From the NCBI RefSeq assembly GCF_003703975.1, contig NZ_QTJY01000004.1, forward strand, positions 248,001-312,000: a stretch of DNA of 64,000 nt, read 5' to 3'. Below, in pieces: positions 4,588 through 63,725 of this stretch. The notes below the pieces were generated by a model, which did no database searches, was not told the DNA's origin, and saw only the letters and a program-made list of their open reading frames with translations. Each line of letters starts with the position of its first letter. Within the stretch, counting starts at the first letter, position 1. The position numbers and the translations under genes were made by a program. This DNA comes from Larkinella soli (lineage in GTDB: Bacteria; Bacteroidota; Bacteroidia; Cytophagales; Spirosomataceae).

Positions 4588-4618
4588 TTTGATTAAAACC
4601 GTTCCTGTACTACTTTTG
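4588..4618 (+). promoter_or_regulatory. Promoter of the act-cox respiratory operon
   Basis: TTTG (4588-4591), a 19-bp spacer and TACTTTTG (4611-4618) form a full match to the Bacteroidota promoter consensus. The start codon of actA is 28 bp downstream. No second clear promoter is seen before the terminator at 21775, so this may drive all 16 following genes. Confidence 0.75.
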
Positions 4619-38375: not shown

Positions 38376-38420
38376 GCCGGTAACGGACAGACGGATATCG
38401 AAAATAATTCGGGATAGTTT

Positions 38421-38450
38421 TTGGTTTTCGGACGTGTTTCGCTAATTTTG
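38421..38450 (+). promoter_or_regulatory. Promoter of rpsL-rpsG
   Basis: TTG (38421-38423), a 19-bp spacer and TAATTTTG (38443-38450), 46 bp before the rpsL start. Confidence 0.75.
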
Positions 38451-56548: not shown

Positions 56549-56580
56549 TTTGCTTTTCCGTCTGAAATCCACTACCTTTG
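56549..56580 (+). promoter_or_regulatory. Promoter of fusA
   Basis: TTTG (56549-56552), a 20-bp spacer and TACCTTTG (56573-56580). The transcript would have a leader of about 90 nt before the fusA start. Confidence 0.7.
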
Positions 56581-58782: not shown

Positions 58783-58802
58783 TTGCCTGTATCCCGAAGA
58801 AC

Positions 58803-58862
58803 GAGGGATCCTGTGGCTGATAACCGGTCCCTTCGACCGCCGAAGCACAGGGTCCCTCTTTC
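58803..58862 (+). terminator. Hairpin between fusA and rpsJ, possible attenuator
   Basis: GAGGGATCCTGTG (58803-58815) pairs with CACAGGGTCCCTC (58846-58858), 13 pairs with one G-U, followed by TTTC. It may attenuate transcription into rpsJ. Confidence 0.5.
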
Positions 58863-58973
58863 GTCGGGCTGACAAAACAATAAAACAGTGCCGCGCCGGT
58901 GGAGTAAATGGTTCTTTCATCGGCGTACCGCCTGTCCCGGACAGGCACCTTTTCATCAGAACCACTAATTGTT

Positions 58974-59279
58974 ATGAATCAAAAAATTCGGATTAAACTG
59001 AAGTCGTTCGACCACATGCTGGTCGACAAGTCGGCTGAAAAAATCGTCAAGGCCGTCAAATCGACGGGCGCTATCGTCAGCGGCCCGATTCCCCTGCCGA
59101 CCGAGAAAGAAATCTTTACCGTCCTGCGTTCTCCGCACGTCAACAAGAAGTCGCGGGAGCAATTTCAGCTCTGTACCTACAAGCGTCTGGTCGATATCTA
59201 TTCGACGAGCGCCAAAACGGTAGACGCCCTGATGAAGCTCGAACTGCCGAGCGGGGTTGATGTAGAGATTAAGGTATAA
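58974..59279 (+). CDS. rpsJ: 30S ribosomal protein S10
   Basis: This 101-residue uS10 protein has [23 protein letters not shown] and the [29 protein letters not shown] loop, ending [10 protein letters not shown]. It is also NusE, a transcription antitermination factor. ATG 58974 is the family start; the open frame from 58908 covers the spacer. It is separated from rplC by an unusually long 410-bp gap. Confidence 0.97.
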
Positions 59280-59400
59280 ATTAATTCGTCGAACGACGGA
59301 AGTTTTCGGAACAGCGCCGACCGAAGCCACCGGTTTCAGAGGGCGCTGTTTCCTTTAGCGGATTTCCGGAAAAATATTTTTCGGAAATCAAAAAATTAAC

Positions 59401-59408
59401 TATCTTTG
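59401..59408 (+). promoter_or_regulatory. -7 promoter element inside the rpsJ-rplC gap
   Basis: TATCTTTG is an exact TAnnTTTG match. The -33 region is T-rich without a perfect TTG. Transcription from here would cross a structured segment that ends at the terminator 59520-59549. Confidence 0.55.
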
Positions 59409-59414
59409 CAACCC

Positions 59415-59549
59415 GAAGCCGAATTACGGAGCAAAGACATACCTTGGGTGAAGGTCCGAAAGGAAACCACATCTGACAATTTAGTCCGGTAACACGCCTT
59501 GTGTGTGCCTACCGAACGGAGGGTCAGGTGGAAACGTCTGACCCTTTTT
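59415..59549 (+). ncRNA. Candidate structured leader or small RNA before rplC
   Basis: Between the -7 box at 59401 and the terminator at 59520 lies about 105 nt with visible pairing: CGGTA (59487-59491) with TACCG (59510-59514), enclosing ACAC (59492-59495) with GTGT (59501-59504). CTGAC at 59473-59477 can pair with GTCAG (59523-59527) of the terminator, giving a possible anti-terminator. It could be an attenuated leader for the S10 operon or a free small RNA. No ORF of interest lies here. Confidence 0.45.
59520..59549 (+). terminator. Terminator inside the rpsJ-rplC gap
   Basis: AGGGTCAG (59520-59527) pairs with CTGACCCT (59538-59545) and a T tract follows. It precedes a separate promoter for rplC. 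Confidence 0.75.
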
Positions 59550-59603
59550 GTTTGTCGTATTTAGTTCAGAGCCCGGAATTTTTTGAGAATTAAGGAGATA
59601 GGG

Positions 59604-59635
59604 TTTGGATGACAGTCGACAAATCCCTAATTTTG
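59604..59635 (+). promoter_or_regulatory. Promoter of the rplC ribosomal operon
   Basis: TTTG (59604-59607), a 20-bp spacer and TAATTTTG (59628-59635), 54 bp before rplC. This gives the long ribosomal-protein run its own promoter downstream of the terminator. Confidence 0.75.
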
Positions 59636-59689
59636 CACTCCGTTTTTTCGGGTTTAAACACATAAATTCCTGCTTTACAACCACTTATT

Positions 59690-60310
59690 ATGTCTGGTTT
59701 AATTGGAAAGAAGATTGGGATGACCAGTCTGTACAATGCTGACGGGCAGGCTCTGGCATGTACAGTCATTGAAGCTGGTCCCTGTGTCGTTACGCATGTA
59801 AAAACACAGGAGACGGACGGTTATCAGGCCGTCCAGTTAGGGTACGGTGAAAAGAAAGAGAAGCGTACCAACAAACCGTTGCTGGGCCACTTTAAGAAAG
59901 CCAACACGACGCCGAAACGCAAGTTAGTCGAGTTCAAGACGTTCGAACAGAACCTGGATCTTGGGCAGACGCTGGGCATTACGGACGTTTTCACGGAAGG
60001 CGATTTCATCGATATCGTCGGCACGGCAAAGGGTAGAGGTTTTCAGGGCGTTGTGAAACGTCACGGTTTTGGTGGTGTCGGTGGGCAAACCCACGGTCAG
60101 CACAACCGCCAGCGTCACCCCGGTTCAATCGGTGCCTGTTCCTTCCCGTCACGGGTCTTCAAGGGGCTTCGGATGGCCGGCCGTATGGGTGGCAACCGCG
60201 TGAAAGTACAGAACCTCCGTGTACTGAAAGTTATGCCGGAGCAGAACCTGATCGTTGTAAGCGGTTCGATCCCGGGCTCAAAAAATTCGTTCGTCATTTT
60301 AGAGAAGTAA
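59690..60310 (+). CDS. rplC: 50S ribosomal protein L3
   Basis: This 206-residue uL3 protein begins [14 protein letters not shown] and has [16 protein letters not shown] with the tip loop [19 protein letters not shown] that reaches the peptidyl-transferase centre. First gene behind the promoter at 59604; rplD follows after 3 bp. Confidence 0.97.
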
Positions 60311-60313
60311 GTC

Positions 60314-60940
60314 ATGGAGGTAGCAGTTTATAACTCGAAAGGAGAAGATACGGGCAAGAAAGTAACCCTGTCCGACGAAATCTTCGGAATTGAGCCGAAC
60401 GAGCACGCGATCTACTTAGACGTGAAACAATACCTGGCCAACCAGCGCCAGGGTACGCATAAGGCGAAAGAACGGGCTGAGAATGCTCACTCAACCCGCA
60501 AGATCAAGAAGCAGAAGGGTACGGGCGGCGCCCGCGCCGGCTCCATCAAATCGCCGGTATTCGTCGGCGGTGGTACCATCTTCGGTCCCCGTCCCCGCGA
60601 CTACAGCTTCAAACTGAACAAGAAAGTAAAGCAACTGGCCCGTAAGTCGGCTCTCGCGGTAAAAGCGAAAGAAAACAACGTAGCGGTCCTGGATAACTTT
60701 ACGCTGGACGGTCCCCGTACGAAGTCTTACCTCGATTTCCTGAACGGTTTTAAGGCGGCTGATACCAAAACGCTCCTGATCCTGCCGGAGGTAGACAAGA
60801 ACGTCGTTCTCTCAAGCCGCAACCTGAAGAAAGCGAAAGTGATGACGGCCGATCTGGTCAGCACCTACGATCTGATGAACGCCGATCGACTGCTGATCGC
60901 GGAAGGGGCCCTGTCGAAATTAGAATCTCTTCTCCAGTAA
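60314..60940 (+). CDS. rplD: 50S ribosomal protein L4
   Basis: This 208-residue uL4 protein has the extended loop around KIKKQKGTGGARAGSIKSPVFVGGG, which lines the peptide exit tunnel, and the C-terminal globular part (STYDLMNADRLLIAEGAL). L4 is the usual autogenous regulator of the S10 operon in other bacteria. Confidence 0.97.
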   Translation: MEVAVYNSKGEDTGKKVTLSDEIFGIEPNEHAIYLDVKQYLANQRQGTHKAKERAENAHSTRKIKKQKGTGGARAGSIKSPVFVGGGTIFGPRPRDYSFKLNKKVKQLARKSALAVKAKENNVAVLDNFTLDGPRTKSYLDFLNGFKAADTKTLLILPEVDKNVVLSSRNLKKAKVMTADLVSTYDLMNADRLLIAEGALSKLESLLQ

Positions 60941-60946
60941 CTGATC

Positions 60947-61240
60947 ATGGAAAACGTATTGAAAAGACCGATCATCACGGAAAAGATGACCGCCCTGAAC
61001 AAAAAGGGACAATACGGTTTTGAGGTGTCGATGAATGCCAACAAAATCGAAATCAAGAAGGCAGTCGAGAAACTGTACGGCGTAACGGTAACGGACGTCA
61101 ATACCATGCGTTGCATCGGCCATAAAAAGTCGAAAAGCACCAAGCGGGGCACGATCACTTCCGGCCGCACTTCCACCTGGAAAAAAGCGCTGGTGACCGT
61201 TGCCGAAGGAGAAGTCATCGACATCTACGCGGAAGTATAA
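60947..61240 (+). CDS. rplW: 50S ribosomal protein L23
   Basis: This 97-residue uL23 protein starts ENVLKRPIITEKMTALN and has the basic loop KKSKSTKRGTITSGRTSTWKKALVTV. It lies at the tunnel exit, where trigger factor and SRP bind. It begins 6 bp after rplD. Confidence 0.96.
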   Translation: MENVLKRPIITEKMTALNKKGQYGFEVSMNANKIEIKKAVEKLYGVTVTDVNTMRCIGHKKSKSTKRGTITSGRTSTWKKALVTVAEGEVIDIYAEV

Positions 61241-61282
61241 GGGGTACGAACCACGAACGACCAAACGAATTAGTTAGGAATC

Positions 61283-62107
61283 ATGGGAGTTAAGAAACTT
61301 AAACCAGTTACCCCGAGTCAGCGTTTTCGGGTAGCTCCGGACTTTGCCGAAATCACGACGGACAAGCCCGAACGGAGTCTGCTGGTATCCATAAAGAAAT
61401 CAGGTGGCCGTAACAACCAGGGCCGCCGGTCGATGCGCTACATTGGTGGCGGTCATAAACGCCAGTACCGGATTATCGACTTCAAGCGCGATAAGACGAG
61501 CGTTCCCGCCACGGTAAAGACGATCGAGTACGACCCCAACCGTTCGGCACGGATTGCGCTGCTGCATTATGTAGACGGCGAGAAGCGCTACATCCTCGCT
61601 CCCCAGGGCCTGACGGTCGGGCAGCAGGTAGTATCAGGTGCTGAAGTTGCTCCTGAAGTGGGTAATGCTCTGCCGCTGTCGGCCATGCCCATCGGTACGA
61701 TCGTTCACAACGTCGAACTGAAGCCGGGAAAAGGGGGTGCGCTGGTTCGCAGTGCCGGTACTTACGCCCAGCTGGTGGCCCGGGAAGACAAGTATGCCAT
61801 TCTGCGGATGCCCTCAGGGGAGCAGCGGATGGTCCTGGGAGCCTGTATGGCGACGGTCGGGTCGGTTTCGAACCCCGATCACATGAACGTCAGTGTGGGC
61901 AAAGCCGGCCGTAACCGCTGGCTCGGGATCCGCCCGCGCGTTCGGGGTGTCGCCATGAACCCGATCGATCACCCGATGGGTGGTGGTGAAGGCCGTGCAT
62001 CCGGTGGTCATCCGCGTTCACGTACCGGTCTGTATGCAAAAGGCAAGAAGACCCGTCCGGTGAAGAAGTACTCAGATCGACTGATTATTAGCAAAAGGAA
62101 AAAATAA
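61283..62107 (+). CDS. rplB: 50S ribosomal protein L2
   Basis: This 274-residue uL2 protein has the conserved [14 protein letters not shown] start, [17 protein letters not shown], and the C-terminal [21 protein letters not shown] with the His near the peptidyl-transferase centre. Length is normal. Confidence 0.97.
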
Positions 62108-62114
62108 GAGGTAG

Positions 62115-62393
62115 ATGGCACGCTCACTTAAAAAGGGTCCCTACATAGATTTTCGTCTGGAGAAGAAAGTCACCACCATGAATGATTCCGGCCGCAAGTC
62201 CGTCATCAAGACCTGGTCGCGTCGGTCGATGATCTCTCCCGATTTCGTTGGCCATACGTTTGCCGTCCACAATGGCAATAAGTTCATTCCGGTGTACGTC
62301 ACCGAAAACATGGTAGGCCATAAGCTGGGTGAATTTTCTCCCACCCGTAACTTCCGCGGCCACGTGGCGAAGAAAGACAAAGGCAAACGATAA
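62115..62393 (+). CDS. rpsS: 30S ribosomal protein S19
   Basis: This 92-residue uS19 protein has [18 protein letters not shown], the motif [27 protein letters not shown] and the end [21 protein letters not shown]. Seven bp separate it from rplB. Confidence 0.97.
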
Positions 62394-62468
62394 AAGCAGC
62401 AGGCCGTCGTAAGCCGGTCGTTTCCGAACGATCCGGGTATGCGGAAGGCGACTAACACTCGTAAGATA

Positions 62469-62861
62469 ATGGAAGCAATAGCAAAGCTAAAAAATGTGCC
62501 TTCGTCCCCTCGCAAAATGCGGCTGGTCGCCAACCTGATCAGGGGTCAGAAGGTCAGCAAAGCGCTGGGTATTCTGCGTTATCAGCCCCAGGCTGGTGCC
62601 GCCCTGCTGGAAAAGCTGCTGCTCTCGGCAGTAGCCAACTGGCAACAGAAAAATGAAGACGGACGGATCGAAGATGCCGACTTGTATGTAAAGACGATCT
62701 TCGTCGACGGCGGCCGGATGCTGAAGCGTCTGCGCCCGGCTCCTCAGGGCCGTGGTCACCGGATCCGGAAACGGTCCAACCACGTGACGATCGTGATCGA
62801 CAGTGCCGCAGCTCCCCTGACGCTTGCACCAGAAGTGACAACAGAAAACGCAGAAAACTAA
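62469..62861 (+). CDS. rplV: 50S ribosomal protein L22
   Basis: This 130-residue uL22 protein has [28 protein letters not shown] and the tunnel-hairpin segment with [22 protein letters not shown]. The start ATG 62469 ([10 protein letters not shown]) is preferred over 62439, which adds an unconserved segment. The C-terminal 15 residues are extended and acidic. Confidence 0.96.
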
Positions 62862-62870
62862 GACAACAGA

Positions 62871-63725
62871 ATGGGACAAAAAGTTAACCCCGTTGGTCTT
62901 CGGCTCGGCATCGTTAAAGGTTGGGATTCCAGCTGGTATGGCGGCAAGGAATTTCCTGATAAACTGGTTGAAGACGAAAAGATCAGAAAATACATTCAGG
63001 CTCGTATTCCGAAAGGTTCCATCAGCAAGGTGGTAATCGAACGGACGCTGAAGCGGATTACGCTGACGATCCACACGGCCCGTCCGGGTATCGTTATCGG
63101 TAAAGGCGGTGGCGAGGTCGATAAGATCAAGGAAGAGCTCAAGAAAATTACCGGCAAAGACGTCCAGATCAACATCTTTGAGATCAAGCGTCCGGAGATC
63201 GACGCCAAGCTGATCGGTGAAACCATCGCTCAGCAGCTCCAGGCCCGTATCTCGTATCGGCGCGCCATGAAGCAGGCCATCAGCTCGGCCATCCGGGTGG
63301 GTGCTCAGGGAATCAAAGTTCGGGTTTCCGGTCGTCTGGGCGGTGCTGAAATGGCCCGTACGGAAGAGTACAAGGAAGGCCGGGTACCCCTGCACACGCT
63401 CCGTGCCGATATCGATTATGCCATCTCTGAAGCGCAGACCGTATACGGTAAAATCGGTATTAAGGTCTGGGTTTTCAAAGGTGAGCTTTACGGCAAGCGG
63501 GACCTGTCACCGGCCGCTCAGATGAGCGCAGCACAGCAGGATCGCGGTGGCGACCGTGGTGACCGTCGTGGTGACCGTGGGGACCGTCGCGGTGAGCGCG
63601 GTGGTGAAGGCGAACGCGGTGACCGTCGCCGGGGTCGGAACGACCAGCAGGGCGGACGCGGTGGCCGGGGCGGTGGTGGCGGACAGCAGCGCGGTGGCCA
63701 GGGCGGTGGCGGACGTAAAAGATAG
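62871..63725 (+). CDS. rpsC: 30S ribosomal protein S3 with long RG-rich tail
   Basis: This 284-residue uS3 protein has the core [23 protein letters not shown] and the KH domain with [17 protein letters not shown], ending in the usual [17 protein letters not shown] (about residue 213). About 70 further residues, rich in Arg, Gly, Asp and Gln (repeats of GDRGDRRG, then [16 protein letters not shown]), form a low-complexity tail absent from E. coli S3. S3 lines the mRNA entry channel, so the tail may contact mRNA or other factors. The DNA for the tail is itself a run of short imperfect direct repeats. Confidence 0.96.
63542..63720 (+). repeat. Low-complexity repeats encoding the S3 tail
   Basis: Short imperfect direct repeats of GGTGACCGTCGT- and GGCGGTGG-like units encode the Arg/Gly/Asp tail of S3. 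Such repeats are prone to slip in replication, so tail length may vary between strains. Confidence 0.6.

Follow-up and report, generated by a model that had tools for sequence, protein, structure and literature searches.

The window analyzed here, a 64-kb stretch of Larkinella soli DNA whose features lie on the + strand except where stated, carries the gene order fusA, rpsJ, rplC, rplD, rplW, rplB, rpsS, rplV, and rpsC. The S10 gene rpsJ (58974–59279; NCBIfam NF001861 and TIGR01049) is separated by 410 bp from rplC, which encodes L3 and opens the presumed target operon (59690–60310; NCBIfam TIGR03625); rplD, encoding L4, follows (60314–60940; NCBIfam TIGR03953), and the cluster goes on through rplW, rplB, rpsS, rplV, and rpsC (60947–63725; NCBIfam). 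The initial annotation called this gap far longer than usual: the 410 bp stand, but "far" is too strong, the rpsJ-rplC gaps of 24 related loci without the conserved core described below measuring 140–376 bp. Between fusA and rpsJ lies a very stable long hairpin (58785–58880; −46.5 kcal/mol, z −5.6) that is perhaps the fusA terminator, in which case rpsJ may have separate transcription. Another strong predicted hairpin, without a long T-run, lies 3′ of rpsJ (59308–59352; −28.2 kcal/mol and z −3.7 for the fold of 59300–59362), and may mark where the upstream transcript ends.

Beyond that hairpin, the gap holds a Bacteroidota-type promoter (P1) recognized by sequence from its exact −7 box, TATCTTTG (59401–59408), a conserved core (59437–59480), a predicted hairpin whose sequence differs among genera (59487–59514), a terminator composed of a left arm, GGGTCAGGTG (59521–59530), and a right arm, TCTGACCC, with its T-run (59537–59549), and finally a complete promoter for rplC (P2) that matches TTTG-N20-TAATTTTG (59604–59635). 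The −7 box, the nested hairpin, the terminator (placed at 59520–59549), and P2 had been picked out in the initial annotation, and each is present where it was put; a clear −33 box (TTTG) 5′ of TATCTTTG was not found in the window. The folding energy of the leader is by itself unremarkable (z −1.2, with 29 of 200 shuffles as good), and Rfam 15 gave no match at gathering score in the gap (best sub-threshold E 2 to 7.6) or in 20 related loci, so the case that this is more than a chance structure is a comparative one.

A DNA search of 61 genomes of the family Spirosomataceae delimited a conserved stretch equivalent to positions 59433–59485, all of its hits at the loci compared being ahead of rplC. 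Within this stretch, the core occupies about 44 nt and consists of a helix, GAAGGTC, a variable hairpin, GAAACC, and the return of the helix. The covariance model of the core (R1, built from 35 sequences including that of the window) scores it at 59.5 bits with an E value of 3.7e-15 in its own genome, where it is the sole match at E 0.01; two more are weak (E 0.15 and 0.31). The outer helix has five base pairs (GGGTG/CATCT), its 5′ arm GGGTG at 59446–59450 pairing with 59470–59474, and all five pairs are kept in 82/82 distinct leaders; variants are GGATG/CATCT, AGGTG/CACCT, and AAATG/CATTT. Two As, a GG/CC step, and a UC/GA step with two bulged As on its 3′ side follow, surmounted by a hairpin of variable length; this inner motif, AAGGTC-hairpin-GAAACCA, lies at 59451–59469. 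Its fixed letters do not vary in the 35 aligned sequences, an invariance that is partly by construction because the sequences were picked with a pattern holding those letters; R1 tolerates changes, yet brought in no additional family genome. The spacing between the fixed letters ranges from 6 to 24 nt in length classes of 6–13, 22, and 24, which breaks any common reading frame, and a coding sequence in the leader was rejected on this ground. Support for the pairing itself comes from the R1 alignment, in which 99.4% of cells are paired, falling to 27–50% when one side is slid by one to three columns. The covariation score is 0.184 as compared to 0.140 after shuffling, with both-side changes in two pairs, while six of the ten core pairs are without variation and carry no covariation information; the top pair of the inner motif (C-G or U-A) is compensatory in 8/35 sequences and unpaired in 2/35.

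When 100 candidates were scored per genome, R1 at E 0.01 found the core in 31 of the 61 genomes of the family, from 18 of the 36 genera covered, once per genome and always upstream of rplC. Matches in the family are expected because many of these genomes contributed to the model; the informative part is that there are no copies elsewhere. The covariance-model check proposed in the initial annotation finds a conserved core at the same place in about half of the family genomes. A pattern scan of named genomes returned 107 exact matches, 82 of them 202–262 bp upstream of rplC and four more cut by the end of a stretch or contig (L148, L155, L158, and L216); the remaining 21 had no rplC on the stretch, and those with listed names were mostly unrelated bacteria. 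The core remains with rplC even at loci whose stretch showed no rpsJ (e.g., L009–L013, L016, and L017). Across the phylum (198 genomes, 30 candidates scored per genome), strong R1 matches occurred in the two Spirosomataceae, and 27 other genomes gave weak ones (E 0.002 to 1); at eight of the weak loci (L251–L258), no S10, L3, or EF-G gene was present on the stretch. In the other families of the order, 59 loci were compared, and R1 matched none of them up to E 10. Two records deserve mention. L039 (G054) shares its genus with two genomes of type A (the type with the core of the window), yet its rplC contig, which extends 271 bp upstream of the gene, has no core, whether through loss, replacement, or an assembly join; this counts against the reading proposed below. 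L141, titled Flavobacterium sp. SUN052, has rpsJ, rplC, and a type A leader typical of Spirosomataceae, and is perhaps misnamed or a mixed assembly.

The core is closely tied to the terminator that follows it. By a script rule, a terminator is present in 112 of the 113 leaders pooled; in the exception, L007, which was excluded from the counts on 82 distinct leaders, there is a terminator whose T-run is interrupted. The T-run of those 82 starts 65–94 nt 3′ of the core. The right arm of the core, CATCTGAC (59470–59477), contains CATCTGA, a repeat of the terminator right arm, and is thus able to pair either with the core left arm or, as an antiterminator, with 59523–59530 of the terminator left arm through a 7-bp complement whose loop would enclose the nested hairpin. 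In general form, the terminator left arm GGTCARRTG is complementary to the core right arm CAYYTGA. The initial annotation had proposed such a pairing for CTGAC at 59473–59477, and this proposal is borne out, all seven antiterminator pairs being kept in 81 of the 82 distinct leaders as compared to 3.07/82 with shuffled spacers. The search patterns set the core side of the complement, and a YCARRT motif, present in every leader, served to locate the left arm, so only the shuffled-spacer control addresses chance. Matching changes on the two sides are seen in L042 (CATTTGA/TCAAGTG) and in extended form in L040 (CATCTGATCTC/GAGATCAGAT). Past a position that is often mismatched, the helix usually gains three further pairs, and the last of these forms in 70/82 leaders as compared to 57.1 after shuffling. 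Since the complement is nearly invariant, covariation there is thin, and the leader sequences are also related.

Predicted folding is consistent with a competition between the two pairings. When leaders were folded only up to the terminator left arm, the antiterminator had a probability above 0.5 in 82/82 distinct leaders and the core helix in 0/82. In the full-length fold, the core helix exceeded 0.5 in 44/82 and the antiterminator in 25/82, a split with no single clear default; for the window leader, the full-length values were 0.83 for the core helix and 0.01 for the antiterminator. This is the behavior that would be expected of a poised attenuator, in which the outcome would be set by whether the core is held while the terminator is being synthesized.

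The promoters on either side of the terminator bear on how much such a device could control. The full pattern TTTG-N17-23-TAnnTTTG has five matches in the window as compared to 0.57 expected; apart from P2, these lie at 4588–4618, 38420–38450, 56549–56580 (directly 5′ of fusA), and 62482–62516 (− strand). Counts of P1, P2, and rpsJ were taken from the first 80 of the 107 named stretches. Among the 62 terminator-bearing leaders there, 23 have a TAnnTTTG box no more than 90 nt 5′ of the core and 42 have rpsJ upstream, with both in eight and neither in five. A P2-like box, by a relaxed pattern, is present in 59/59 leaders with a terminator and rplC on the stretch, and a TAnnTTTG box stands ahead of rplC in 24/24 rpsJ-rplC gaps outside Spirosomataceae. 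A conserved P2 located 3′ of the terminator lets transcription of rplC begin beyond the switch, so that control by the leader would be at most partial, which is the chief argument against a strong regulatory effect.

We propose, with a probability of roughly 80%, that 59437–59549 is a cis-acting transcription attenuator heading the rplC-rplD-rplW-rplB operon and its continuation, and that it is controlled by a ligand, most likely a protein of the operon. The attenuator architecture predicted from the sequences is supported by the conservation of the element, its restriction to the rplC site, and two pairings that exclude each other, together with the way they are predicted to fold; what we infer beyond this are the transcripts, the ligand, which way regulation runs, and how large the effect is. 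The reading of the gap as an attenuated leader, one of two offered in the initial annotation, is therefore strongly supported by the conserved core, the terminator (112/113), and the antiterminator pairing (81/82). The element agrees with the established concept of the ribosomal protein leader while matching no such leader that we found: a structured, conserved RNA stands directly upstream of a ribosomal protein operon and has an expression platform, here the terminator. By analogy with such leaders, autoregulation by a protein of the rplC operon is probable, a surplus of that protein being the simplest candidate signal. L4, the product of rplD, would be the likeliest encoded ligand because it is the known regulator of the E. 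coli S10 operon, a choice made by precedent and backed by no likeness to rRNA.

One could then envision the following sequence of events. RNA polymerase that started at P1, or in leaders lacking P1 came through from rpsJ, would make the core first, next the spacer hairpin, and then the terminator left arm. With the core free, its right arm CATCTGA would pair with the terminator left arm, blocking the terminator and permitting transcription to enter rplC. When a ligand, most likely the free operon protein (L4 by precedent), holds the core hairpin, the terminator left arm would be freed, the terminator would form, and transcription would end near 59549. P2, located 3′ of the terminator, would maintain a basal supply.

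Alternatively, the attenuator may respond to something outside the operon, such as another protein, a small molecule, or NusA, Rho, or ribosome coupling to rpsJ, which we consider unlikely but the best of the alternatives. It would be consistent with the lack of a 23S rRNA counterpart of the core, for which the best ungapped local match is 17/22 and without which the usual mimicry argument for a ribosomal protein ligand is missing; the covariance model R1, run with default filters against three 23S genes (L122, L123, and L248) up to E 10, likewise gave no match and so no sign of 23S mimicry, although a purely three-dimensional likeness would escape such a search. (Resemblances to E. coli 23S positions 623–640 and to GAAACCCCCTCTGA in one family 23S were treated as chance; the 23S of the Larkinella genome itself was looked for and not found.) Also in favor of this alternative, where rpsJ adjoins, the core motif often begins about 40–48 nt past its stop codon. 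However, the conserved inner motif with its extendable top hairpin in our judgement resembles a protein site, and the target is a ribosomal protein operon, where leaders of this class are the precedent.

The other reading of the initial annotation, a stand-alone small RNA gene, is now improbable; it would span some 140 nt between P1 and the terminator, and its product would work in trans or on ribosome assembly. In the window, P1, the terminator, and P2 could bound such a gene. Even so, the single match per genome at E 0.01, always upstream of rplC in the 61 family genomes (100 candidates scored in each), disfavors it, as do the presence of a P1 box in only 23/62 leaders when rpsJ lies upstream in 42/62 and the fact that the conserved core contains an arm able to pair with the terminator.

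Still less probable is an ordinary constitutive terminator 3′ of rpsJ followed by an rplC promoter, with the rest unimportant. Such an arrangement does exist outside the family, where 21 of 24 rpsJ-adjacent loci have a terminator 3′ of rpsJ and ahead of the P2 box in the absence of a type A core (the script counted 22, but the hairpin of L105 lies 3′ of P2 beside rplC). It would nevertheless leave unexplained the conserved core, the complement between core and terminator in 81/82 leaders, and the persistence of the core where rpsJ is not adjacent.

That the element is the signal recognition particle RNA is scarcely credible: GTCCGAAAGGAAACC resembles what we take to be the apical loop of that RNA, and RF00169 has no match in the genome of the window, but the gap likewise has no RF00169 match at E values up to 10, the length of the element's hairpin varies between 6 and 24 nt, and five of nine genomes of the genus (that of the window among the nine) have a weak match (E 3.3e-4 to 6.6e-4), in G058 on contig 19 when rplC is on contig 17, so this candidate was set aside. 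These matches (at G058:C19:144416-144512 and at a single site in each of the four further genus genomes) score about 30–31 bits against a gathering score of 40, so that the RNA is easily missed in this genus; overall, RF00169 matched 11 of 19 genomes, just five of them over the cut-off, and the genome of the window, whose own signal recognition particle RNA was not located, and seven others gave no match.

Returning to the attenuator, its closest known counterparts are other ribosomal protein leaders. The S10 leader of E. coli, which serves L4-dependent transcription attenuation and translation control, sits ahead of rpsJ, the first gene of its operon, unlike the Larkinella element, which lies between rpsJ and rplC. 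The Bacillus L20 leader is a ribosomal protein transcription attenuator in which a ligand-stabilized aptamer competes with an antiterminator; the Larkinella element would share the opposition of aptamer and antiterminator and differs in its operon and RNA structure. According to the available portion of one account of the E. coli system, L4 is the regulator of the S10 operon (PMC10931766). The similarities to that leader are an operon containing rplC, rplD, rplW, and rplB and an intrinsic terminator within the leader; as the same portion describes it, feedback by an operon protein is known in E. coli where it is presumed here, and the mechanism most likely involves NusA-promoted pausing stabilized by L4, as compared to an explicit antiterminator/terminator pair in Larkinella (PMC10931766). 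Sequence likeness to the E. coli leader was judged through Rfam, which gave no match. In the available part of a survey of ribosomal protein leaders, examples listed for Bacteroidia and Flavobacteria are those of L13, S4, S15, S16, and L19, with an L4 leader given only for Archaeoglobi (PMC7247131). These candidates resemble the present element as ribosomal protein leaders of the same phylum or, for L4 in Archaeoglobi, in standing ahead of the same rplC-rplD genes; in that part of the survey, however, no named Bacteroidota leader precedes rplC, and the L4 leader is archaeal (PMC7247131). The main text of another paper (PMC2965389) contains neither "Bacteroid" nor "rplC". Among open-licence papers, judged by title and the start of the abstract, we found none on an rplC leader in Bacteroidota, and in the portion of the open-licence literature available we found no account of how Bacteroidota balance synthesis from S10-type ribosomal protein operons. 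The suggestion that the leader had not been described for its phylum therefore holds as regards Rfam families and these papers, but it was too broad in that the element is confined to part of one family.

The rest of the family has other RNAs at the same site. The 61 family genomes comprise 31 of type A, 17 of type C, ten of type B (L064 by alignment only), one B-like variant (L061), and one with none (L039), and G059, whose rplC match begins at residue 34, was left out of typing. Type B (L051, L053, L059, L060, and L062–L067), recognized upstream of rplC by alignment or pattern, has the GAAG(G)TC-hairpin-GAAACC motif in common with type A, set within a longer helix closed by GACTGTG...CAGTC, plus a second domain around GAGGTAACAAGG...CCTTACC. 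Type C (L033, L034, L037, L043–L050, L052, and L054–L058), recognized by a covariance model about 200–300 bp upstream of rplC, has a GGTTGGCA-hairpin plus a long covarying rod with an invariant TGAATGCCCA loop, and a GGCA/UGCC loop-loop contact (kissing loop) can be read from the alignment as a possibility. In that alignment of 15 sequences, 98.9% of cells are paired and the covariation score is 0.262 as compared to 0.130 after shuffling. The type C model (R2), built from these sequences, gives one strong match per genome, at the rplC place, in 17/61 family genomes; against the 31 type A genomes it gives only a weak match in G039 (E 0.005), and a weak R2 match was also seen in G331 (L262). No terminator-like hairpin better than −6.4 kcal/mol (three B loci tested) or −8.2 kcal/mol (three C loci tested) was detected, and in the set of 20 loci scanned against Rfam, neither the five of type B nor the four of type C had a match. 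Outside the family, L3 was found in 106 genomes, and in the 59 of those loci that were compared none of the three types was found by pattern, L086 and L089 matching single B sub-patterns only.

Because terminators are common at the rpsJ-rplC junction outside the family, type A looks like such a terminator made regulated. One could extend this to a scenario that we consider evenly balanced between right and wrong, in which three different structured leaders occupy one point upstream of rplC in a single family because an ancestral terminator became a regulated gate separating the fusA-rpsJ unit from the rplC unit, after which the sensing RNA was replaced and the control point was kept. If true, the turnover of types A, B, and C at one site would constitute a natural experiment on the replacement of regulatory RNAs for the same proteins. 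The type A leader itself offers a compact switch with both alternative folds defined to the base, in genera with cultivated strains (Dyadobacter, Spirosoma, Runella, and Larkinella), and if it works as proposed, a whole block of ribosome genes would be tunable up or down through it.
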